From Asparagopsis taxiformis (taxonomy: Eukaryota > Rhodophyta > Florideophyceae > Bonnemaisoniales > Bonnemaisoniaceae): a DNA stretch of 64,000 nucleotides. Made by a program: the position numbers and the translations under genes. The stretch covers positions 1 through 64,000 of the forward strand of contig JALQPE010002475.1 in NCBI GenBank assembly GCA_030407315.1, in the 5' to 3' direction. Below are positions 7,723 through 62,000 of this stretch, in pieces. Positions within the stretch are counted from its first letter, which is position 1; each line of letters begins with the position of its first letter. Below the pieces are notes generated by a model, which was not told the DNA's origin, did no database searches, and worked only from the letters and a program-made list of their open reading frames with translations.

Positions 7723-8277
7723 AGAGGGTTTTGGAAAATTCCCATATGGGAAGTTTATGGGAATTTTGTGGCTAAGCGATTCAGCAGACTCCACAGTATC
7801 TAAAATTAGTAACCAGGGAACAGAAATGTGCTTACAGAATGTTTTCACCGTCGACAGTAAAGTATCGCCGGCGGAGACAGGTTTTAGTGAAACATCTTTT
7901 GAATGTAACGCGATGGCATCAAGTGTGACGCCGATCAACCAAAGACAGTTGTCTGTAGTAGACAACAGCAATAGATCATCTTGTCCGCCACCAATTTATG
8001 TGTAGATGCACGCATGCAGTGTTGAGCATTCTTTACGGACACCTGTCTGGTGCGAATAGTCGTCACGCAAACCGTGTTCCGTGACTGGCAAATATCCTTC
8101 ATCTTTACTTTCACATTTTTGTGCTGGTTTACTTCACTTTTCAAATCGCGTTGAAACTGCTTACACAACTACTCTATCTCCCCATCACCTCAGCATAGTT
8201 CAGCGAGTCTATTTTCAGGCTTGCGCGCCCCTCCTTTTTCCCACAAACTTCCCGCTGGTGGGTTACCAAAACCCTCT
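7723..8277. mobile_element. Non-autonomous PIF/Harbinger MITE (555 bp)
   Basis: Both tips are AGAGGGTTTTGG, inverted, and both are flanked by the trinucleotide ACT (7720-7722 and 8278-8280). The next bases inside each tip are G/A/T-rich with a repeated GGGAAGTTT.TGGG segment, as in the 8.3-kb Harbinger element at 20451. The tips and the 3-bp duplication are the same as those of that autonomous-type element, so its transposase could mobilise this MITE. It contains no coding sequence. Confidence 0.92.
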
Positions 8278-13654: not shown

Positions 13655-14712
13655 GGTTATGGCCGAATCTACTTGGAGTAGGGCGTGTAGACAATGTCGG
13701 GCCTCTTCATGTTATGAAGAGGCCCGACAGTGGTTCGTCCACCGTATTCAGCCAATCAGTGAGCTTTGTCCACCACAGCGACTGCAGCGAATCGGAGTGG
13801 TTCGTCCACCAAGCATGGCATTTTGATTGGCTCTGATCAAACATATTGGGAAAATATCATTCAGGGTGGCCCGTAAAATGGGTCAGTTTCGACTGTCAAC
13901 GGATCAGCCACTAAGCGTTACGTTCGACGTGACAGAGCCGTTTTCTAAGATCCAAAGTTCGGTAAACGAAAACTGCTTTCACGCGGTATCCGCCCGCCGC
14001 CAAAACTGAAACGTAAAATGAGTGAAAACACAAATGAAAATTTCACTGGCCGCCGTCCACGAAGTGGACCGCTCCAATTCCGGACCATGATGGACCCGGG
14101 CGGCACAATTTGGGAAGGGCATTCTAGAAGCCGTCCCCGTGTGCATGATATGCACCCCAGCAATAGTCTCGTCGACGCATCGCTACATTCCCACTTCCAC
14201 CACCATTCTCGCCACCAATTACGATCTATGCTGTCGCCAGCGCAAAAAAGTTTATCTGAACGATCATATCCTGCACTGCCGCTCCCGTATGCACCAAATT
14301 CATTGCAAACAAGAAACGAAACACGGCTGGAGACCAGCGTTACGGAGTTCAACGGGAAAATTGATATCTTCCTGTGTCTCTCTCTCAAACGCGCGAACAT
14401 GTACGTATTGGAACTACATTTTCGGCGAAACAAGAATCTAAACACCAACAAAGAACATGGTTGCTAATTTTTGTGTTTTACTCTGTCTTCTCTGCGGTAT
14501 TTCTCGTAAAGAAACAGCTGACGGCGTTGTTGGAAGATATATCTTTCTAGCTCTTCATAAGCTGCATAAGAGAACGTGATACGCGAACTGCTGCGACAGG
14601 GCCTGCGATTAATGAATGAACGGGTGGAGCAAAGTATTAGCAATGATGAAAATTCAGCACTCGCAAAATTCAAATGCCCTCTGACCGAAATTGGTATGCA
14701 GCTCGACAGAAA
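13655..14712. repeat. MULE-1 left TIR (about 1,058 bp)
   Basis: It is the reverse complement of 19628-20450 joined to 28732-28940. Identity is so high that reading frames inside are conserved in both arms. The inner 130 bp contains the start of the Ulp1 gene, so the left arm carries a dead copy of that gene's 5' end. A perfect hairpin at 13696-13728 is present only in this arm. The trinucleotide AGT at 13885-13887 is the unoccupied counterpart of the Harbinger insertion site. Confidence 0.93.
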
Positions 14713-19759: not shown

Positions 19760-20450
19760 GTTCTCTTATGCAGCTTATGAAGAGCTAGAAAGATATATCT
19801 TCCAACAACGCCGTCAGCTGTTTCTTTACGAGAAATACCGCAGAGAAGACAGAGTAAAACACAAAAATTAGCAACCATGTTCTTTGTTGGTGTTTAGATT
19901 CTTGTTTCGCCGAAAATGTAGTTCCAATACGTACATGTTCGCGCGTTTGAGAGAGAGACACAGGAAGATATCAATTTTCCCGTTGAACTCCGTAACGCTG
20001 GTCTCCAGCCGTGTTTCGTTTCTTGTTTGCAATGAATTTGGTGCATACGGGAGCGGCAGTGCAGGATATGATCGTTCAGATAAACTTTTTTGCGCTGGCG
20101 ACAGCATAGATCGTAATTGGTGGCGAGAATGGTGGTGGAAGTGGGAATGTAGCGATGCGTCGACGAGACTATTGCTGGGGTGCATATCATGCACACGGGG
20201 ACGGCTTCTAGAATGCCCTTCCCAAATTGTGCCGCCCGGGTCCATCATGGTCCGGAATTGGAGCGGTCCACTTCGTGGACGGCGGCCAGTGAAATTTTCA
20301 TTTGTGTTTTCACTCATTTTACGTTTCAGTTTTGGCGGCGGGCGGATACCGCGTGAAAGCAGTTTTCGTTTACCGAACTTTGGATCTTAGAAAACGGCTC
20401 TGTCACGTCGAACGTAACGCTTAGTGGCTGATCCGTCGACAGTCGAAACT
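19628..20450. repeat. MULE-1 right TIR, inner part
   Basis: Reverse complement of 13888-14712. It ends at the ACT (20448-20450) where the Harbinger element begins. The continuation of the arm resumes at 28732. Confidence 0.93.
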
Positions 20451-20738
20451 AGAGGGTTTTGGAAAAAGCCGAAGTAGGAATTTTTACGGTATTTTGTAGC
20501 TCAGCGATTCAGCAGGCACCACATATTCCAAGAATAGTATCCAGGGGTAAAGTTGTGAACAGTTCTGTTCACGGTTCAAATGTGAAATGTTTCTGAAAAA
20601 GTAGCGGCGGCGGTGAGTTTGTTGCAGAAATCGGTTTGTTCATGTTCGACTTTAAGAAGTGTGACGAACAGAACGAAATCGTGACAGAAACGAGAGTAGG
20701 ACACTTGTCCTAGGAACCACACAAAAAGAAATTCTGTT

Positions 20739-20846
20739 ACCTGGCTGGCAAGTCGAGATGACACAAGTTGACGACCTCCACATCGACGTGTGCAATTCCA
20801 CAGTGGAATTCCTCACGTCGATGTGGAGCTTGTCAACCAGCCAGGT
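20739..20846. promoter_or_regulatory. 108-bp interrupted palindrome upstream of the Harbinger transposase
   Basis: The arms pair in three blocks: ACCTGGCTGG with CCAGCCAGGT, CTCCACATCGACGTG with CACGTCGATGTGGAG, and an inner AATTCCAC/GTGGAATT. It ends 30 bp before the start codon. Such a structure could be a transposase-binding region, or could form a long RNA hairpin if transcribed. Its role is inference. Confidence 0.8.
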
Positions 20847-20875
20847 ATTTTTTTGTTTAAACAAACTTACACCTT

Positions 20876-22072
20876 ATGGCTAGACTTCCCAGCAGACAGA
20901 GAGACCAAACGCGAGCAAGGGTGATTGATCGGAACACAAGAAATATTATCTTCCTCGTGAGGTGTAGGTTGATGAATGTGTCGAGACCGTTGGGAATGTA
21001 CTTCCTCGATGAGGCCCAGAGAGAGTACATGGACTTGCAATTGAAACAAGAGCGTCGTTACAGTGTATTCGAGAATCGTTTCGATCTTGAAAAGCTGGAC
21101 GATCAAGAATGTCTCAGACGCTTCCGATTCCTGAAAAAAGACGTCGTGCGAGTGGTTTCACTTCTGGAATGGGGGGAAGAATTATTTTCAACTTCAAGGA
21201 GGGGATATCGTGCGAGTGGTATTGAGGCGTTCTGCACAATTGGAAGGAGACTCAGTACTCCATGTGTATGGAGCGATTTAGAGAACGAGTTCGGGAGGTC
21301 TGGATCGGCACTATGTGAGATATTCTACGAGACAATTGAACAATTATACAAGGAAAAAGGTCATTTGGTGGAGGAATTCAAAGCAGGGTTCATAATTGAA
21401 AGAAGTGAAGAGTATGCGACAAAGGTGTTTGAATCAGGGGCTCCATTGGACAGCTGTGTTGGGTTTGTGGATGGAACCAACGTTTTTATCGCACGGCCGG
21501 GTGGAGATATGCAGAGAGAAGCGTACAACGGTCACAAAAAGCGCCATTGTATCAAATTTCAGGCTCTTACTACGCCGGGCGGAATGATATTACACCTGAG
21601 TGGTCCAGTAGAAGGATGTAGACATGACATGACCATGTTCAGACAATCTAATCTCAATCATCATTTACACACGCATATGGAAATTTCTGGGCGGCAGTTC
21701 TATGTATATGCGGACTCAGCCTACCAGTTGCAGCCGTACATGATGGTGGGATATAGAGGCAGCAATTTGTCCACTCAACAGAGAGCATTCAATGGACGTA
21801 TGTCGAAGGCACGTATATCTGTTGAGTGGACGTTTAAGGAGATTAAGAAGTACTACACACATGTCGATGTAACGCGAAAGATGGTTGTGGGTAAGTCTCC
21901 AGTCGGTTTGTGGTACTGTGCAGCTGCACTACTTCTAAATTTCAGAACATGTTTATACGGCTCCCAGACAAGCCGATATTTTCATTGCCACTCACCTTCG
22001 TTGGAATCGTACATGAATCTTCCAGTTTATGGAAATGAAAGTACAGCATTAGGAACCAATGGGGAGAGCTGA
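20876..22072 (+). CDS. PIF/Harbinger transposase (DDE endonuclease, HARBI1 family)
   Basis: A 398-residue intact frame, normal length for the family. The DDE_Tnp_4-type catalytic residues are D199 (GFVDGTN), D280 (VYADSAY) and E317 (ISVEWTFKEI), with the usual GHKKRHCIKFQ and DMTMFRQS segments between them. The N-terminal about 100 residues are basic and helical (HTH-like). It cuts at the element's tips and joins them to a 3-bp target, and in the family it needs a Myb-like partner for nuclear import and DNA binding. That partner is likely the gene at 27220-28430, which is broken here. No stop or frameshift, so this copy may still make active protein that acts on MITEs such as 7723-8277. Confidence 0.96.
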   Translation: MARLPSRQRDQTRARVIDRNTRNIIFLVRCRLMNVSRPLGMYFLDEAQREYMDLQLKQERRYSVFENRFDLEKLDDQECLRRFRFLKKDVVRVVSLLEWGEELFSTSRRGYRASGIEAFCTIGRRLSTPCVWSDLENEFGRSGSALCEIFYETIEQLYKEKGHLVEEFKAGFIIERSEEYATKVFESGAPLDSCVGFVDGTNVFIARPGGDMQREAYNGHKKRHCIKFQALTTPGGMILHLSGPVEGCRHDMTMFRQSNLNHHLHTHMEISGRQFYVYADSAYQLQPYMMVGYRGSNLSTQQRAFNGRMSKARISVEWTFKEIKKYYTHVDVTRKMVVGKSPVGLWYCAAALLLNFRTCLYGSQTSRYFHCHSPSLESYMNLPVYGNESTALGTNGES

Positions 22073-22950
22073 AATATGAATGCAGTAGTAGATTTTATTT
22101 AGACAGTCGATACTTGCTACTGAGCTACTTCCCGAGATGTTGCGTGGCTCGTGCGGAACAGCAGCGGCAGTTAACCCCACAAGATGTTCCAGCAGTTCTG
22201 ATAGACGAAAATAAACTCTTTGAAAAGCTATGTTCTTTGAAGTCCGACACATTGTTGCACGGTACCAACAGTTCAAGAATGCGAGAAGAATTAATTCGAG
22301 AAGCATTACATGCTGATATTTGGAGCCTTTCTGACGAGAAAGGGCAGAGAAGAGGAAAGATGACATTCGGAGATCTACAGAAACGGCCATTTGTTCAGCT
22401 TGAGCCTTGTCAACAGAAGAGTGTTTTACCTCCACTCAATGAGCTATACTAGCTTGCTGATAACGGCGGCACCCCATCGACGCCACCATCATTCTCGCCC
22501 CCATTGTAGACTTCCTGCCCACCATTCGTATATTCTGCATCATGTCCTTCTAGATTTCCATCATTTTCCTACCCCAACCGACCACTTGTTGAACGATACA
22601 CCGACTTCGATTTATTGTACTCATTCCCATCCCTTCCGCACAAAGCTGCCTCTCCTCCACTTCGTCCTTTATCGACCGACTTGCACCGCATCATATTTGG
22701 TGTAGTCTCAATAATCTTTCCTTGACACAGAAAAACTGTTGTAAACACCGTCACTAGCTGCCAAATCTCCATTGCGCTCCCATTGGGAATACGACAACAA
22801 GTCGTCGCTAGACCGCCACCGACGTAGCGGCTCGTTCCCCTACGGAAACGACTGTATACGGCGCGGCATTTTATCCAAGCGGTCTACGTTGTGCAGTGCC
22901 GGATGGACGTCACGATACGTCGGCGCTGTGGTGAGGCACGGGAAAACGGC
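22073..22950. other. Harbinger interior, no gene recognised
   Basis: A short frame at 22114-22452 and its opposite-strand partner show no domain. It could be the tail of the transposase transcript. From 22453 to 22950 the sequence is C/T-rich with no usable frame. The transition to captured host sequence probably lies in this interval. Confidence 0.45.
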
Positions 22951-23969
22951 GTCTCATTGACTCATTTCCTGCTCTGCCAACTCCCAGACCAACTAATCAC
23001 CCGCATATTCCACTTTTTCTGCGACCAAACTACCGATGCTCCAGGCGCCCTTCACCTCGGATCACTCCACCAAGCTGGTCATGCCTTCTCCCTGGCCAGA
23101 TGTTCCCGCGCCCTTCTCCACATCTTTCGAACGTCCTGTCTCCGATCCATACATGCCTCCCTCCCGCCCCATCTTCTTTGAAGATGCGATGGTTCGCGCC
23201 GTGAAAGAAAAACTTCCCAACCTCAACATTGTCCACTATTCAGAACCAGAAGAGCCTCTGTTCGAACCGCGTTCGCACTTTTACGACTACTCATCGCGAG
23301 ATTTTTTCCTGCAGAAGATGACAGACACCGCGCAATTCGTGCGAAGAAACATTAGTCGCAACCATGTACTCGCTGATCTGCAAGTCACTGGCAGTGAACG
23401 AGCAATCCGATACAGTCTCACTGCATTTCCGTGCTTCTGTACCGAGCGTCGATTTCAAGGCCGCTGTTCTAGCGCGTTTCGAGAATCTTTGTGGTGTGCT
23501 GTCAGACGCATTGCTGTGCGCTACAAATGTTACATGCCTACACATTCCTCCTGAAGTGGCCAAGTACCTGGCAAAAGGCAGAGCAAAATTGAGCTCTGTA
23601 CTTCAAAATCTCGGCAATCTCACATCACTCGTGCTTGGGGATGAAAATTGTCGAGGCGAGTGTACGCGGGAATTTCCAAAGCCAGTGTTGGAAAACCTTC
23701 CATTGCTGCTTCGACTGATATTTGAGTTTTGGCCGATGCTGGAAAGCCTTTTCATTCAAGATAATTTTTGGAAGAGCGCCAGCTCTCATTGTTCCCGACG
23801 AAAAATTCGGCATGCTCTCAATTGTTTACGATCTCTAGAGAAGAGACATCCCAAGCTGGATGCTGGCACTGTTCACGTGTGGTTGAACCGATTACTGGAA
23901 ATTCGTTTGAATTTCTGTCGTGGTCATGAGATGCAAGTGTACCCAATAGCAGACGAAATCCAAACTTGA
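22951..23969 (+). pseudogene. Captured F-box/LRR-like gene fragment
   Basis: The F-box motif is at about 22970-23130: LPDQLITRIFHFF followed about 20 residues later by ARCSRALLHIF. The sequence then moves to a second frame with PNLNIVHYSEPEEP, then a third (23364-23969) with a leucine-rich part, VLQNLGNLTSLVLGDENC. F-box proteins bind Skp1 and present substrates for ubiquitination. Two frameshifts make this copy non-functional. No introns are needed to align the blocks. The assignment rests on motif pattern only. Confidence 0.6.
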
Positions 23970-24095
23970 GTTCACCGCCATCTTGTGCGCTGAAAGTTGT
24001 TCACCAACTCCAATTGTTCGTGTCTCCGCGACAACTGCAACGTGCACTTCAAGCTAATCGAGACCAGTGTCGCGAAATTGAAACGGTACCATATC

Positions 24096-24866
24096 ATGGC
24101 ACAACAGAATGCAGCCAAAGTAGTGTCCCAATGTCCGCTCCCTCCGAATCGCTACTACGAGTCTGGCGCACTTCGCACAAACGGTCCACCGCTTGCACCG
24201 ACTGCAAATGACTCGTACAGCATGTTCAGGCGCGTCTACACGACGGATGACGCGCTTCCCTCGCTGGAAGAATCGGGACGAGTACGACTGGTCGACGCTG
24301 ACAAACGGCCAAGCGAAGAGCTTGCCAGACTGAACAAATAATTATTGGCGCTGTTTATGAAGCTGGTACGAAGCCTGTGCGAGCCGTTGCCGCTGGATTT
24401 GCCGCCACAACCGCACAAGGAGATCATTCAGGAAGCTGAAGACACGATAGTGAATATGCAGCATCTGACCAATGTGATGAGACCGGCGCAAGCCGCCATG
24501 GATCTCAACACGCTGCTCGATCGCCAGACTGCGACGCGTAAAGATATGGCAGAGAAATTGAATGATAGTGTAAAACGCGCGTGGGATCTGATCGGCGATG
24601 CGGCGGAGAAATTGTCGCAGCCAAGTGTGCAGCTTTCGAAGGATTCCATGGCGCTGCCGTTTTTGAAGCGCGACGGGGTTGGGAGCGAGGAATGTGATGA
24701 GTGTGGCGTTCATTTGATGAAAGTATACTTGACAGAGGCGGTTTTAAGACTGCTTGAACATTCACCCATCAGAAGAGCCAAAGTTGAGGTGGGAATAATG
24801 ATTCTGCTTGGTTTCAATTGCCAACGCGGTATAGTTGGATGCGAGTTACCCTGCAAGAAGACTTAG
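24096..24866 (+). pseudogene. MED7: Captured Mediator subunit MED7 with one in-frame stop
   Basis: From the ATG at 24096 the sequence follows the MED7 plan. A Pro-rich N-terminal part (PLPPNRYYESG) is followed by a PSLEESG motif and by ELARLN. The helical domain comes next, with DTIVNMQHLTNVMRPAQAA and the basic, Gln/Arg-rich helix after it, which correspond to the family's NMHHLINEYRPHQAR region. A TAA at 24339-24341 interrupts it right after LNK, and the frame continues without a shift. MED7 links head/middle modules of Mediator and is normally essential, so a functional copy must exist elsewhere. The end of homology is near 24640, and the frame then stays open to 24866. Confidence 0.8.
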
Positions 24867-24869
24867 AAG

Positions 24870-25266
24870 GACATTGGTTGCGCAGGGATGAACTGGATTA
24901 CAGATAACCACCATGCAAGGTCTTCTAGGCTTTGTTGTGGAATGCTGGGAACGGCCGTTAGCGTCGCAGTTGAGAAATATATTTGACCACGCTGAATATT
25001 TATAAATATGAACCAATCTGCTCCCGTTTTAATCTATCGCGGCGATCCTTCACCTCACCCGCGTAAAACTCCTCCAGATCCCGACGCGACGCATCGCCAA
25101 TCCCCCGCACCCGAATGAATCCAATGTCTCTCCCAGATCTAGCCTTCGTTTCTTCCCTGGGGAGTCTGGCAAGCAAACGTTCATTCAACGGCACAGCCAT
25201 CAACTCCAAGACTTCACACCTCCCCAATACAGTCCGATGATGATCACATCCAACCGCAAATGTATC
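24870..25266. other. Divergent upstream region of the dapF-like gene; 89-codon minus-strand frame of unknown status
   Basis: A minus-strand frame (start 25269-25267, end 25000) begins inside the same CATG that gives the dapF start on the plus strand. It is rich in Arg, Glu and Leu, and I do not recognise it. It may be a captured piece of a neighbouring gene or chance. No plus-strand frame joins dapF here because of stops shortly upstream (TGATGA near 25238). Confidence 0.4.
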
Positions 25267-25267
25267 C

Positions 25268-26134
25268 ATGACGACATTTCGTAAATACCACGGTATAGGG
25301 AACGATTTTGTCCTCGTCGACAATCGTTCACGCTCAGATCCCGTCTTCTCTCCAGAACAGTCTGTTCAAATCTGCGACAGAAACACCGGCGTGGGCGCCG
25401 ATGGCGTCATATTCCTGCTCCCGTCGCAGATAAACAGTTCAGACTTTTCCATGCGCCTCTACAATTCCGATGGTACAGAACCCGAGATGTGCCGAAATGG
25501 AATCCGTTGTCTCGCCCGTTTCGCAGCTGACTTGGGCGTGGAAAGCCAATCGCCCACAAAATATGTCATTGATACTGGCGCGGGCGTCATTATACCTGAG
25601 ATAATACCGCACACGCCGTTAGTGCGCGTGGATATGGGCACGCCGATATTAGAGCCTGCCGAGGTGCCCACCACACTGAATACGTCTGCCGCTAACGACT
25701 TTGTAGATGTTCTCCGGGATGTTGCCGGAAGAGACTGGACGTTTTCGTGTGTTTCAATGGGTAATCCACACGCGGTTACGTTTGTTACAAAGGACGTTTA
25801 CGACGAAATGGACGTTGCACTCGAGTCTGTCGGACCTGACTTTGAGTGTAATGCCGCGTTTCCGTCCAGGACGAACACAGAGTTTGTGTTTTCGCAAAGT
25901 CGAACCGAGTTTGATATACTGGTTTGGGTGCGGGGCTCCGGAAGGACTATGGCGTGTGGAACCGGAGCTTGTGCTGTGCTAGTCGCGGCTGTGTTGACTG
26001 GGAGAGCTGATAAGGATGTTCCGACGACTGTACATTTGCCGGGCGGTGATTTGACGATCGAGTGGCTGTCGAGCACAAATCATGTGCTGATGACTGGTCC
26101 GGCGCAACTTGTTTTCAAGGGTTCGTTTCCGTAA
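25268..26134 (+). CDS. dapF: Diaminopimelate epimerase-like protein carried by the Harbinger element
   Basis: A 288-residue intact frame, close to the usual length of the bacterial enzyme. DapF converts LL- to meso-diaminopimelate in lysine synthesis, in algae normally in the plastid. Both catalytic cysteines are present, C75 in NSDGTEPEMCRNG and C230 in TMACGTGACA. The N-terminal KYHGIGNDFVLVD and the substrate-contact segments MGNPHAV and TNTEF are also present. The Glu that normally precedes Arg-Gly in the ERGxG segment is Val here (V221-R222), and this Glu contacts substrate in known structures. There is no transit peptide: the protein begins at the mature domain and stops lie just upstream. 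It may be a captured copy that is intact but not targeted, or a degenerating one. Confidence 0.93.
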   Translation: MTTFRKYHGIGNDFVLVDNRSRSDPVFSPEQSVQICDRNTGVGADGVIFLLPSQINSSDFSMRLYNSDGTEPEMCRNGIRCLARFAADLGVESQSPTKYVIDTGAGVIIPEIIPHTPLVRVDMGTPILEPAEVPTTLNTSAANDFVDVLRDVAGRDWTFSCVSMGNPHAVTFVTKDVYDEMDVALESVGPDFECNAAFPSRTNTEFVFSQSRTEFDILVWVRGSGRTMACGTGACAVLVAAVLTGRADKDVPTTVHLPGGDLTIEWLSSTNHVLMTGPAQLVFKGSFP

Positions 26135-26371
26135 TGCTGTGTGCAGAGCTTTTTTTCTGAATGAACAAATGGATGCAACTAGTTCATTGTTGAAATGATG
26201 TATAGCATCGTTGGAGAAGATGGTGCGCTCAATTCGACTAGTTTGGTTTGTGGATAGTAAAATGATTGTCAAACACCTGTGCATGCGTGGTTACAGGAAG
26301 AAATGTGTATTTACAGGGTAGTAGCAATGTCTATTGGTGCATTCGTCTACGATCCGGTCTGTCACGATGCT

Positions 26372-27060
26372 TTAATCGATGTAACCATCGAGAGCAGCGG
26401 CAGCACTGTAGATGTTCTCCTCTCTGAAGTAATCAAATTCCTTATCGAACCAAACAATAGTATCTCCATCCTGCGCACCAGCCTCGATCAACTTTTGATA
26501 AACACCAATCGCGGCGAGAATCCTTTGAAAACGATCAATACCCTCAAAATAATCCCAGTTTGTCATGCGATACGTTCTCTCAACCTTGTAACCGCTAATC
26601 TCAAACTTTCCTTCTTCAATCTGCTCAACAACAACAGGCTCCTGACCGAGCCCATCTTCATCTCCCAGCACGACGACATTATCATCATCACCAATGCTGT
26701 CCACAAGTTTGCAAACTCTGCGCATGACATCGGCCAAGCCTTGTTTTGATTTATCACTAATAACAGCAATGCGCTTGTGCTCTCAAATAACTTGCACAAG
26801 CTCGTCCTTGAGATGTGCGTCCCACTTGTCTCGCACGCCCGGCAAGTCAAGCTTATTCACCTGCACGACATCCTTCTTCCGCGCCAGACACTCATCAAAC
26901 AGCTCCATTTCGAGCCGAATGGTCTTGTAATGTTCAATGACATTTTCGACACTGCCATCTAAAATATGCACAACGACCTTGCATCTCTCCACATGTCTGA
27001 GAAATGACACGCCCATACCAATACCGCGATGGGCGCACCTGATCAACGCGCCGTACTTGA
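26372..27060 (-). pseudogene. obg: Captured 3' half of an Obg-family GTPase gene
   Basis: On the minus strand, 27046-26786 encodes the GTPase part after the switch region (CAHRGIGMGVSFLRHVER, VVVHILDG) and the G4 motif NKLD. A TGA at 26783-26785 interrupts the frame. It resumes with AVISDKSKQGLADVM (G5 region) and ends in the Obg C-terminal domain, FEISGYKVERTYRM...FQRILAAIGV...EAGAQDGDTI. The G1 motif and the N-terminal glycine-rich Obg fold are missing because homology ends near 27060. Obg proteins act in ribosome assembly in bacteria and organelles. This is a truncated, broken copy. Confidence 0.85.
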
Positions 27061-27219
27061 GTCAAAAAACCAGCAAATTTACGAATTCTGATTATGAACT
27101 ACATGTTATCCATCTCCAAATGTTGACTGCGCCAGGCATTTTTCCAGGAAGGACAAAAGGGTTCTTCACGAACCCAGCCATGACTAACTTTATTGGCAAG
27201 GACCGGAACGGACTAGTTA

Positions 27220-28430
27220 CTAGTCCTTCTTTTCTAAAACACCACGAACCAGCTGTAACATTGATTCCTGCATTTTGAAGAATGATTCGCTGGCCTCCGC
27301 TTCCTTTTCTGCTCTCTGCGCCTCTCTAATTTCTCTCTCTTCTTCCCTTTTCTCCCTTCTCTCCTCTCTGTTTTCCCTTCTTGTTTCCCTCTCTTCTTTC
27401 ATTCTCTCCACTTCTACCTTCCGTTCCTCTGCTGTGGCATTTCTTTCGTCTAGTTCCAACCGTCTGCTGATCGCATTTTTTCCAACTCGTGATGTGCTGT
27501 TTCCATTTCCAGCCTTTTATTCTCACGCCGTTCATTGCGCTCAGCAGAGGCCCTCGCGAACTCCTCAGATTTCTCTAGTAACCTTACAGCTTCCTCGTTA
27601 GCTTCAAGCGGATTATACCTTTCACTGAAAGGTGTAGGGCTCCTAATGTTTCGAGTGTTACGAGTTCGTGGAGTGCTAGCAGAATTCTCTTCGTCTCCCG
27701 GAAGAAAATCAACCTCTGCTGTGATTCTGCACATTGCCCTGTTCCGAAGCTCCGAAGCAAACGAGCTTCTGCGTACTTCTCGAGCCTCATTTTCACGCCT
27801 CTCCTCGGCTATCCTACGTTCATCCCCTTCCTTCTCCTCTATCATTCGCGAGCACAAATTAAAAAGCTCCAGAGCTCCTCCTCTGCGGCGAACTCTAAGT
27901 CCCCTTCTCTCCTTATGTTTTGTAATGATAACCTTGAGTCTTTCTATGCAATGCTTGCTGTCCGTCATCCATGGTAATTTTCCTGATCTGTTCAGCGTCT
28001 CCGAAATTGTATCAAAGACATGCCTCTAGTTCCTCTTTCCACCCAAATGAACTTTGATTTTCAACACTTCTTCCACGAGCAAAATATCATGCGAAACATC
28101 GAAAATCCTTCTCCGACATTTTTCACGAGACTGGACCCCCTCATCCAGATCACCATCAGACTGTAGCTCGCTATTCCTGTTGTTAGCAGCTGTCAGCATT
28201 ATCTCTGTGTCAGCGTCAAGATCTATGGGAATTTCTTCTGATACCAGTGGTGTTCCGATCATCTGGTCTGTTCCTGGCCCTCTTGTGATGGTTCCCGTTT
28301 GCAAATTGGCGTCGTCACCTATAAGCGAGGATATAAAGAATCCTGGAGCTATTGTCTGAAGAAGACATATCAGTTTGGGATGAGTTTGTAGTTGTACTTT
28401 TTCCTGCAGCCTTTGATCAGACACAGGCAT
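27220..28430 (-). pseudogene. Harbinger accessory protein: Myb/SANT-like domain plus coiled coil
   Basis: Reading from 28430 towards 27450, an acidic leader is followed by a trihelix/Myb-like domain. It comprises DVSHDILLVEEVLKIK, then HVFDTISETLN, then DSKHCIERLKVIITKHKERR. A TAG at 28026-28028 stands where the fold usually has Trp, and the frame continues after it. The C-terminal part is a long Arg/Glu-rich helix that changes frame near 27455 and ends at 27220 (EERETRRENREERREK). The partner protein of Harbinger transposases has this architecture. It is antisense to, and at the opposite end from, the transposase gene. The nonsense codon and the frameshift suggest this copy depends on another element for the partner protein. 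Confidence 0.78.
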
Positions 28431-28731
28431 TTCAGTTCGGTATCAGTTCGATCCACATCTGGATCAAACCTTGTCCATAGACAGCTGTCCAGATTGAAGC
28501 GATGTAACGCGGCGCAAAGTCCGTGACACCACCGCGACGTCCAGGATTTTCCTTGCATTAGTTTCAAAACTGTGAAACTTTGACTACAGTGCTAAAAAAC
28601 TTTCGGTATCTTGAGCTTTGGCAAGTTCGGCTCCCGCAAACAGTTCGACTGTTCAGCGATCTTATTATTATAAATACGGTCCCCGACCTTCCTACAAAAT
28701 ACCTACCGGCGGGATTCCAAAACCCTCTACT

Positions 28732-28940
28732 GACCCATTTTACGGGCCACCCTGAATGATATTTTCCCAATATGTTTGATCAGAGCCAATCAAAATGCCA
28801 TGCTTGGTGGACGAACCACTCCGATTCGCTGCAGTCGCCGTGGTGGACAAAGCTCACTGATTGGCTGAATACGGTGGACGAACCACTGTCGGGCCTCCTC
28901 ATGTCTACACGCCCTACTCCAAGTAGATTCGGCCATACCC
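28732..28940. repeat. MULE-1 right TIR, outer part
   Basis: Reverse complement of 13655-13884, ending GGCCATACCC before the 9-bp duplication ccttgaaat at 28941-28949. Unlike the left arm it lacks the inserted half of the 13696-13728 hairpin. Confidence 0.93.
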
Positions 28941-58752: not shown

Positions 58753-59543
58753 TTACGTTCTAAAACGTCTCGCCTCAGAGGCCCAATTTGGGATGATTTT
58801 CGTCATCGGCGAACGCAACCATGCGTGTTGGAGGGTTTGACCGTTGGAGCACGGCTTTAGGGTAATCCCTTTTTCGGTTGAACCGATTGGACTGGCGCTG
58901 TTGGCGGCGCATAACCTGCTCCGGTTCTTGCTGGTAAGCGTAGTTCGCAAAGGCGAAGTAAGTTCCCACTGAGGGTGGTAGGTAAGGGCAAGTGTACAAC
59001 ACATGCCCGGTTGGCGACAGCCAGAGCATCTCCAAGTAACAGCCCCTTCGGGGATCATACTCTCAGCGAGTTTAAGATGTTCTCCCGTTAGGGTAGGGGC
59101 CTGCATTGGCGCGCCCATTGGGTTCCCGGTAGGGGAAGGTAAGGTCGGCGGCGGGGTCCGCGGTATCACAGCCGTTTCCCGGGTACGGTAGCGAGCAACG
59201 CTTTGCGTTTACGATCCGCGATTTCCCGAGTAGGGTAGGCCTTAGGTTTCGCGGGCAGCGATGCTCGTAAAGAGTCCCCGAGTCCTTTAGCAAGGTTACG
59301 GACAGCAAGGAAATCTTCTCCGCCACTGCGTCTGTGTTCTCGGAAATGGACGCGGACGTCCACAACCTCTAGTACACCTAGTATTACTAGGCGGACGTCC
59401 ATGTTCTCCAGTATTTTTGGATGTCCGCCTAGAACCGGACGTCCATGCGGTCTAGTACGTCTAGTATTACTAGGGCGACATTCATTGTTTCTAGTACCAC
59501 GGATGTCCCCCTCGGGATGGACTTCCGCCATGTCTATGTCCAC
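58753..59543 (-). pseudogene. gypsy-2 gag end with zinc knuckle (frameshifted)
   Basis: Three overlapping frames cover this part. The knuckle is split between frames: CSGC in one and GHVLYTC in another, giving C-x2-C-x4-H-x4-C. Upstream, LAVRNLAKGLGDSLRA resembles the C-terminal part of Gag. The start region (59340-59540) contains repeated CGGACGTCC and CTAGTATTACTAG blocks. Most of a normal Gag is not visible. Confidence 0.65.
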
Positions 59544-60664
59544 CTAGGACGGGCGCCGGTTCAGAAATTCAAAAATTTCGACCCCAGAAATTTCTGCCGC
59601 CGTGCTCGACATGGATGTCCGCATCCATCACGGCGACCACTCTATTTTTCCTTGTCGGTCGACTCCAATTTCGTCTTTAATTTTTTCATCCTCTCGCTCA
59701 CACCCCCTTCCTGTTGGTGCTCACCTCCCCCGTACTGTACCTCAAACACCCCCAATACCACTCTAGCACGCATTTTCAGATACCTATCCCCGCTTCCACG
59801 GTGCACACCTCCATTCCATACCTACTTTTCTGCTCTACCGTACAGATTTCGTATAACCAGTCCTCATACTACCTCAGAATAGGGCAAAACACCCCTATCT
59901 CCTCGACCATGCTCTCCCCCATCACCTTTGAAACGTATTGTTCTTCAGTACCCTCTCTCCTCTACCCTCAACCCCTCCCTTCGCCCTCTACACAAACTTC
60001 CCCTGCAGCTTACTCTTCCAAAACCTCTCACTCCCCATCCCGTACCCGACCTGCTCCACCCCTCCCTCCCTCAGCTGCTCCATGCCCCCACGCCATCCGC
60101 ATCTTCGATACCGTATACACCACCACCACCGGCCCACGCTCCCGCACTGCGGGGTGGCTCCCCCGCCGTATCCCCAGAAACCTCCCCGCTCTGAAACACA
60201 TATCAACCCCCCACTCCGCACCCTTCCTCCCACTCCCCTCCCTCCCCAAATACAATAACCCCCTTCTTCTCCATCACATCCCCACTCACCACAGCCAGAA
60301 CAGACGCCACCCCTCCCCTTCTTTCTCCTCACTTTCCTAAAAACCCCTCCTCTCGGCGCCTTCAACCGCACCCTCCTACGGTCCCACCTAAACACCTCCT
60401 CCGCCCTCACTACCCCAACACCCCGCAGCGTCTCCCCAATCCCCATAATATGCTTGTCGGCACTCCTCTCCGAATCACAATCCATTCTAAACCCGCACTC
60501 CGTACATTTCCACCTCCCCCTGTACCATCCCAAGATTCCATCCCCCCACAGAACACATCCTCATACCACAGAAGAATTTTCTTCCTCTCATACCTCATCC
60601 TTAAAACCTCCATCAGCTCCATGTAAATTTCGATGAAAATATTTTCTCTACTATGCAATCTCAA
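59544..60664 (-). other. Pyrimidine-rich tract with a possible zinc-ribbon gene remnant
   Basis: The plus strand is strongly C/T-rich and G-poor over about 59700-60650, which produces long chance frames on both strands. On the minus strand, 60533 onward encodes WKCTECGFRMDCDSERSADK followed by HIMGIG, which resembles the C-terminal zinc ribbon of TnpB/Fanzor-type proteins (C-x2-C-G...D-x-D-x-x-A-x-x-x-I). The preceding frame (60664-60534) has ERKKILLWYEDVF. The match is short and the surrounding sequence is low complexity, so this is only a suggestion. Confidence 0.3.
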
Positions 60665-60944
60665 ACATGTATGAGCCTATGCCTTTCCGCTTTGTCAACC
60701 CTGAATATTGGTACTCATGTATTCATAAAATAGGGCCACCCACATCCCTATCCCGTTCTGCAAGCTTTACAAACCACTAGACGCATACTCCACAACTATA
60801 CAACAAACACTACTCGCTATTTCAGACGACGCGGTACACAAGTAGCGTAGTGTCAACCTTCCGTGACGCCTTCCCTGATGCGTACAAGTGGGAAACACGT
60901 CTAGACGTATATCAGAACTGAGTGCGGGAATTTTCGGCACAGGA

Positions 60945-62000
60945 GATGCTGGGCCACCAAATTGATTTTTCGGAAATTTTAGAATTTCTGGGCTGGCCAG
61001 CAATGCAATCGAGCTGGACATCCACCGGACGTCCATTTCAGGTTGGTCGCGAGAGGGTGGGGCGGGACCATGATGAAACAAGGACCAAGACCTTTCCCTG
61101 ACGTGTTGAGCCTGAAATCGACCCTTCGTGAGACGCGATTTTGGCTTACAGTTGGTGCTAATAGAAGCCAGTGATAGCCCCGATCGGGGCGGCAGCCGGC
61201 TCCGGCTTACAGTTGGTGCTTACAGACGCCAGTGATAGCCCCCGATCGGGGCCGGCGGTCGGTTCCTGGGGCCGTTGTGGCCAAATTAGACACCCTGATT
61301 TGAATTAAAATTTGGGCTATTCTCAAAAACATGCACATGTGAACATGTTTTTGAGATGGGGGTGTGCCGTACGGCACAATCGACCGCCCAAATCGTTGAT
61401 TTTTGCAAGATTTTTTGTGCCCGAAATTTTAGAATTTCTGGGCTGGCCAGCAGTGCATCTGAGCTGGACATCCACCGGACGTCCATTTCAGGTTGGTCGT
61501 GTGCTGCCTACATCCACGCATTGCAGAAACTAAGCCAGCGGGTTCACTACTAATACAAAGTACACGGAATATGAGTAACGTGATAGGTGAGTAGTGTTTG
61601 TGTTGAGGGAGTAAGGCGGGACCATTATGAAACACGGAAGAAGATGCGTACCTAGCATAACTTAGGCTTGAAGCCTGGAATCGACCCATCTTTCGGCGCC
61701 ATTTAGCCTCACAGTTAGTGCTTACAGAAGCCAGTGATGACCCCGCTCGGGGCGGCGGTCGGTTCCTGGGGCCGTTGTGGCCAAATTAGACACCCTGATT
61801 TGAATTAAAATTTGGGCTATTCTCAAAAACATGCACATGTGAACATGTTTTTGAGATGGGGGTGTGCCGTACGGCACAATCGACCGCCCAAATCGATGTT
61901 TTTTGCAATATTTTTTTGTGCCCGAAATTGTAGAATTTCTGGGCCGGCCAGGAATGCATCTGAGTTGGACATCCACCGGACGTCCATTTCAGGTGATCGT
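60945..62000. repeat. Tandem repeat with a 500-bp period (two full copies and a partial)
   Basis: 61203-61510 and 61703-62000 match at an exact offset of 500 bp, and 60945-61200 resembles the part between them. Each full copy holds a hairpin TCTCAAAAACATG...CATGTTTTTGAGA (61321-61355 and 61821-61855), a 14-bp palindrome GTGCCGTACGGCAC, and GACATCCACCGGACGTCC. The CGGACGTCC block also occurs three times in 59340-59460. No coding is likely. Confidence 0.88.

Follow-up and report, generated by a model that had tools for sequence, protein, structure and literature searches.

A PIF/Harbinger-type transposon of the red alga Asparagopsis taxiformis with a middle probably rebuilt from host genomic DNA

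How does a DNA transposon come to hold a run of host genes between two genes of its own? The question is raised by an 8,278-bp element at positions 20451-28728 of a 64,000-nucleotide stretch of the Asparagopsis taxiformis genome (GenBank assembly GCA_030407315.1, contig JALQPE010002475.1, positions 1 to 64,000; the window), which a sequence-only reading had described as a PIF/Harbinger element with four captured host genes. The assembly comprises 141 Mb in 3,156 contigs; the window is contig C2349, and labels such as C317 or C211 denote other contigs of the same assembly. From comparisons within this genome, we consider it fairly probable that the middle of this PIF/Harbinger-type element, between transposase and partner gene, was rebuilt from host genomic DNA by template switching during repair, a form of transduplication.

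The interval 20451-28728 is a single element brought in by one insertion, as the sequence-only reading had proposed from its tips, its duplication and an unoccupied site, and the following features define it.

20448 to 20450, no strand: target-site duplication ACT, left (flank letters)
20451 to 20464, + strand: left terminal inverted repeat, 14 bp perfect (end-to-end comparison)
28715 to 28728, − strand: right terminal inverted repeat (end-to-end comparison)
28729 to 28731, no strand: target-site duplication ACT, right (flank letters)
13885 to 13887, no strand: unoccupied copy of the target site, opposite arm (flank matches and letters read)

Exact copies of the 12-bp tip, AGAGGGTTTTGG, occur at 20451-20462 (+) and at 28717-28728 (−), and the perfect inverted match between the two ends extends to 14 bp. 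With at most one mismatch allowed, the window holds five tip matches compared to 0.38 expected, a count reached in 0 of 100 shuffles, and no internal tip was found within the element at this threshold. Exact tip matches number 100 across the genome (51 forward, 49 reverse), compared to 13 for a reversed control pattern. The 3-bp flanks, ACT on both sides of the window element, were equal in eight of nine tip pairs read, the exception being C2304 (ATT/ACT); two of the nine are second copies of counted sites, which gives equal flanks at six of seven distinct sites. The unoccupied site occurs in four places, namely the opposite arm of the sequence called MULE-1 in the sequence-only reading (13885-13887), C2491, C1631, and C1888. 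At all four, the match to the left flank and the match to the right flank have exactly 3 bases in common, and the letters read at three of them (the arm, C2491, and C1631) were a single ACT each.

The left flank (19851-20450) is 100% identical (rounded) to the opposite arm; the right flank (28729-28940) is 90% identical to that arm but 98-99% identical to C997, C1888, and C1631, and the two arms of the window may have been partly evened out or may have different histories. The same tips, also with an ACT duplication, enclose a 555-bp element at 7723-8277, one of 14 tip pairs of 481-594 bp in the genome that form a family of small non-autonomous relatives.

When 22461-27080 was compared with its own genome, donor loci, which the sequence-only reading had supposed to lie elsewhere, were found on C317 and C211. 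Only one collinear partner was found for 22960-27046.

22960 to 27046, + strand: captured block, collinear with C317:113232-119395, with four internal stretches missing (483, 253, 380, and 910 bp) (alignment)

C317:113232-119395 matches in five blocks, at 94-96% identity over aligned bases, and its four stretches without a counterpart in the copy, 2.0 kb together, cut through both coding sequence and the spaces between genes. This 6.2-kb locus carries, in order, a 596-aa F-box-like open reading frame (ORF), MED7, RuvX, dapF, and Obg, with RuvX and the 522-aa Obg frame on the opposite strand, and the DNA adjoining the donor block on its left is present only once in the genome. Because this single collinear locus accounts for 22960-27046, four separate gene captures are rejected; instead, as judged from the alignment, one 6.2-kb locus appears to have been copied with gaps, its donor still being in place. 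Capture of spliced RNA as cDNA is also ruled out, since non-coding parts and both strands are present and the losses span coding sequence and gene spaces alike, in agreement with the earlier proposal that genomic DNA was taken up. Copying would have run from locus to element, because the genes of the locus are longer and open and those of the element are truncated and broken. An exact tip is absent from C317, and none of the listed matches to the transposase or to the 3′ half of the element falls on this contig.

An assembly error that joined host and transposon sequence would also produce such an arrangement, and an assembly of 3,156 contigs in which haplotype copies are seemingly kept apart gives some room for one. 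We regard this as highly improbable: the copy is 4-6% different from its donor in most blocks and has stops and losses of its own, and the target duplication and unoccupied sites frame the entire unit.

The two ends of the element have different closest relatives.

20451 to 22458, + strand: the element's 5′ half, of subfamily A, 84-92% identical in DNA to elements at C2955, C880, C2268, C2322, C2321, C1028, and C2608 (alignment)
27049 to 28728, − strand: the element's 3′ half, of subfamily B, with 89-91% identity to C1666, C867, C1696, and C113 (alignment)

In a transposase search of the genome (best 105 of 262 candidates scored), the window transposase was 90-91% identical to those on C1974, C2955, C2321, and C2322, which belong to subfamily A, and 71-72% identical to those on C297, C115, C113, and C450. 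The window 3′ half, by comparison, was 66-77% identical to A elements where alignable, and C113 combines a B-type 3′ half with one of the 71% transposases. These identities indicate that the two halves come from different subfamilies. No contig other than the window combined a transposase match of at least 85% with a 3′-half match of at least 89% among the matches listed, although others may exist. At C1666, which is most similar to the window 3′ half, a cargo-free B element was sought without success: the region of similarity gives way to retrotransposon-like sequence, and the DNA beyond that had no match in the 10 other loci compared and resembled only another part of the window, at 65%. At 59326-60964, the window holds a retrotransposon-like sequence (copia-like by eye) with 95.6% identity to the sequence adjoining the C1666 element. 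The middle of the B element on C113 (L055 264-2826) matches dozens of places at 71-83% (best 40 of 145 candidates scored), and a host gene in this interior is ruled out by these many matches, which mark it as a repeat. Within the 5′ half, a near-palindrome at 20767-20858 has 35-nt arms that are 89% complementary with 1 nt between them; relatives align to about 20795 and resume at about 20859, giving the window element about 63 bp extra at this point.

Between the A-type half and the C317 block lies a second captured piece, which ends 6 nt short of the first.

22459 to 22953, + strand: older captured piece from a GATA-finger-like gene, C211:396558-397490 (89-91%), with 438 bp missing at 22689 (alignment)
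22954 to 22959, no strand: 6 nt between the two captured pieces, in register with neither donor (alignment)

The C211 donor belongs to a 503-aa frame with a GATA finger that falls just under the Pfam cut-off (24.5 compared to 26.8 bits). Because the first part of this C211 piece, with nearly the same start, is also present in the sister elements at C880/C2268 and C2322/C2321/C1028, this capture is probably the older one and probably preceded the separation of these A elements.

Sister elements hold other cargo as well. The C880/C2268 element has identical flanks, in opposite orientation, on two contigs and is 98% alike between them, and we therefore take these as two haplotype copies; it carries 1.15 kb from C1944 (an RRM gene) and about 1.0 kb from C2661 (an MFS transporter), both at about 93%, and these pieces from unlinked donors meet with a 2-nt overlap. 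The C2955/C2608 element carries 1.8 kb from C1558 (a WD40-repeat gene, 94%) and two blocks matching C244, C237, and C2732 (87 and 93%); the single long frame tested on C244 had no Pfam match, and C244 may be a repeat. Between the main donors of C2955 (L022 4470-4837) are patches matching C2015 and C318 (81 bp, 94%) and C582 (131 query bases, 75%), as if several short templates had been used. Breakpoints differ on both sides between the C880/C2268 and C2955 elements. All five A-type sites examined (the window, C880/C2268, C2955/C2608/C3147, C1974, and C2322/C2321/C1028) hold at least one host-derived piece, these sites having been chosen for tips or strong matches, C1974 by matches only, rather than at random. 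A general rule of host cargo is weighed against by the repeat middle of C113 and by C2304 and C226, where long tip pairs are filled with retrotransposon-like frames (by eye), so that a long tip pair alone is no proof of host cargo. The same insertion flanks recur on two or three contigs for L023/L024, L022/L031-L032, and L026/L027/L028, which are 98-99% alike where compared, and the assembly seems to keep haplotypes or strains apart.

Further copies, which the sequence-only reading had looked to, thus exist with other cargo in the C880/C2268 and C2955 lineages, but the genome search found no second site with the C317 cargo, only the window copy. This single occurrence would fit an element that inserted without the C317 cargo and received it later, in place, by local break repair unrelated to transposition, and filler insertions of this kind are independent of transposase. 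We think such later entry quite unlikely, because it leaves the hybrid 3′ half in need of a separate explanation and because cargo has apparently travelled elsewhere in the family: pieces of the C2955-type cargo also have matches on C1974, beside a transposase-side tip that is flanked by other letters, and we infer from this second site that the C2955-type composite was moved or copied together with its cargo.

Template-switching repair would account for these features as follows. An excision gap, or a broken element copy, would be repaired by DNA synthesis that left the element as its template, copied from unlinked host loci, and finally continued on a second element, the templates sharing little or no homology where they changed. 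The resulting composite would afterwards have inserted at the window site or, less simply, been rebuilt in place, with the partner protein supplied by another copy of the element. Such repair fits an element that draws on several unlinked donors, jumps ahead along one of them, and ends in a different element copy. The single collinear donor with skips, the unique DNA beside it, donors that abut within 6 nt, and the hybrid halves together suggest that templates were switched. The same is suggested by the 2-nt overlap of unlinked donors in C880/C2268, by the succession of donors and small patches in C2955, by the differing breakpoints of these two elements, and by the lack of an exact tip or listed element match on C317. 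At the joins, the window element has 0-5 shared letters or filler of 2 and 6 nt, and in sister elements the overlap reaches 7 letters or the gap between matches 5 nt.

Several points weigh against template switching. Joins with few shared letters are also expected from plain end-joining after deletions, so that the four skips could be later deletions, and the joins alone cannot separate the two processes, of which template switching is favoured. No second site is known for the window composite, and movement with the C317 cargo is not seen directly; neither a repair intermediate nor a cargo-free A/B hybrid was found. Moreover, a hybrid with one host block in its middle is equally expected from the fusion of two elements, the main rival explanation, in which A-type and B-type copies flanked a host segment, lost their inner ends, and were mobilised as one by their outer tips. 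A contiguous stretch of host DNA framed by halves of different subfamilies is what fusion predicts, and PMC8903248 sets out this model for Pack-TYPE elements, Pack-PIF among them. The sequence-only reading had itself raised the case of two elements flanking host DNA: the halves do come from two subfamilies, as judged by identity, but no internal tip, with up to one mismatch allowed, marks a boundary between elements in the window. In two elements, donors from contigs that are not linked come within 2-6 nt of each other, for which fusion needs several extra events, and C317 lacks an exact tip or element match among the matches listed, though another haplotype could hold one. On balance, we view fusion as possible but rather less likely than template switching during repair.

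The genes inside the captured block are listed below.

22960 to 23903, + strand: 596-aa donor ORF present as three fragments, F-box-like by eye, unmatched in Pfam (alignment)
24096 to 24657, + strand: MED7 copy lacking its 3′ end, with one in-frame stop (24339-24341) (Pfam and alignment)
24658 to 24761, − strand: remnant of the 5′ end of a RuvX gene (alignment)
25115 to 26134, + strand: full-length dapF copy with two stops in the N-terminal extension (codons 42-43) and three conserved residues changed (alignment)
26372 to 27046, − strand: 3′ part of an Obg gene copy, one in-frame stop (ORF, Pfam, and alignment)

Pfam matches in the cargo were Med7 (two pieces), DAP_epimerase, and the Obg C-terminal domain DUF1967. 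Of the four captured host genes named by the sequence-only reading, MED7, the dapF-like gene, and Obg are upheld by Pfam, as parts of one contiguous locus rather than one-by-one captures, and the F-box label had no Pfam match in the copy or in the C317 donor. The RuvX remnant and the part of a GATA-finger-like gene had been overlooked. The cargo genes are truncated or broken and in decay.

The dapF copy had been called intact, which is ruled out by its two stops and its changes at three conserved residues. When 7,996 candidates sharing most words were scored and the best 120 compared, the altered core residues at codons 127 and 268 were conserved in 119 of the 120 DapF relatives listed and that at codon 272 in all 120; the C317 donor dapF keeps all three. 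These counts leave out 13 further aligned rows that are not DapF. Codon 127 lies within the MCGNG motif, beside a catalytic cysteine. The closest named relatives listed for the host dapF protein were from Agarophyton chilense (75%), Gracilaria domingensis (74%), and Chondrus crispus (72%). Synonymous divergence (dS) between copy and donor was 0.068-0.081 across MED7, dapF, and Obg. Changes in the dapF copy were non-synonymous in 12 of 31 cases (two of them stops), compared to an expected fraction of 0.575 that assumes a free copy and a frozen donor (binomial P 0.027); a cruder Poisson test gave P 0.0003-0.0008, and the binomial value is the fairer figure. The proportions for Obg (18 of 28) and MED7 (17.5 of 26) were consistent with free decay, and dapF differed from these two together with Fisher P 0.022 (half counts rounded), in a comparison of small numbers for which dapF was picked out after looking at the data. 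These counts hint that the dapF copy was in use for a time inside the element; lasting use is a weak possibility. A broader view, which we regard as doubtful, would make this lineage a modular collector, with ends swapped between subfamilies, a middle repeatedly refilled with multi-gene host segments by template switching, and a dapF copy that was under selection, and hence used, before it broke.

The element's own genes place it in a superfamily.

20876 to 22069, + strand: transposase, open frame, 398 aa from ATG, DDE_Tnp_4 (ORF and Pfam)
27220 to 28442, − strand: partner gene ("Myb-like" in the sequence-only reading), broken by a stop and a frame change (ORF comparison)

The transposase matched DDE_Tnp_4 (E 2.5e-28) and DDE_Tnp_1 (E 6.6e-11) in Pfam, and PF13359 was among the listed Pfam domains of every one of 12 transposase relatives found; no solved structure matched it by sequence at E 0.01. 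The DDE_Tnp_4 family is linked to PIF/Harbinger (IS5-like). With this transposase and a 3-bp duplication, the element is a PIF/Harbinger-type DNA transposon, as had been proposed. Target duplications in the nine tip pairs were ACT, AAT/ATT, and AAA/TTT, with no TTA or TAA. PIF/Harbinger duplications are mostly TTA or TAA, these being the majority in rice and maize according to PMC8903248; TTA/TAA is a preference of the superfamily and not an absolute mark. The partner gene is conserved as a second gene in both A and B elements and is open as a 405-aa frame in C1666. Its Myb-like label found no support: two Pfam scans gave no Myb match, and neither did a protein search at E 0.001. Folding part of the partner protein from its sequence alone gave a poor model (mean pLDDT 47).

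Most described cases in which DNA transposons capture genes come from flowering plants and concern MULEs, CACTA elements, and Helitrons. Pack-MULEs, Pack-CACTA, and Helitrons carry and multiply pieces of host genes, which mostly decay; they belong to other superfamilies than the window element, and Pack elements lack a transposase. All three are mentioned in PMC13317346. The sequence-only reading knew of no well-described Harbinger element carrying several unrelated genes, a claim that gives way to published precedents: Pifvine-3, where PIF elements with coding capacity of their own have captured DNA (PMC2528002), Turmoil-1 (PMC2572040), and Pack-PIF (PMC8903248). Among the titles and abstract openings listed in a literature search, with most subscription papers outside its scope, none concerned a Harbinger element with a multi-gene host locus or such capture in a red alga.

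According to PMC2528002, grapevine Pifvine-3 contains up to 3.5 kb of extra DNA that mostly matches exons and introns of the genome. Like it, the window element combines its own genes, the partner gene present but broken, with host genomic DNA that includes non-coding parts and is neither ORF1 nor transposase. Such DNA is sometimes common to several copies of Pifvine-3; here, the C2955-type composite (C2955 and C1974) and the older C211 piece are shared between copies, and the C317 cargo is confined to the window. The captured DNA of Pifvine-3 lies in the 5′ region of the element, compared to between the two genes here, and the window element further differs in holding a five-gene locus in order on both strands, in having several donors per element and halves of two subfamilies, and in residing in a red alga rather than a flowering plant. 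Turmoil-1, a Harbinger element of C. elegans, has likewise taken up unrelated protein-coding pieces, two in number, but according to PMC2572040 these are small and lie inside 760-bp terminal repeats, compared to multi-kilobase genomic blocks between genes here. Pack-PIF elements, present in maize, also hold gene DNA between PIF tips, and some of them combine donors (163 bp and 58 bp); as described in PMC8903248, they are short and non-autonomous, lack a transposase, and mostly have TTA/TAA duplications, whereas the window element has far longer cargo and an open transposase frame, and owing to that frame is not classed as Pack-TYPE.

A PIF/Harbinger element can thus carry a multi-gene stretch of several kilobases, and the family is of more interest than the single window element, since donors, breakpoints, and unoccupied sites can be read within a single genome for a number of elements in which transposase sequence is preserved, so that template switching in repair and fusion of neighbours can be compared join by join. 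The process, transduplication, is a known one; what is new compared to the systems above is its multi-gene, multi-donor, and hybrid form in a florideophyte red alga.

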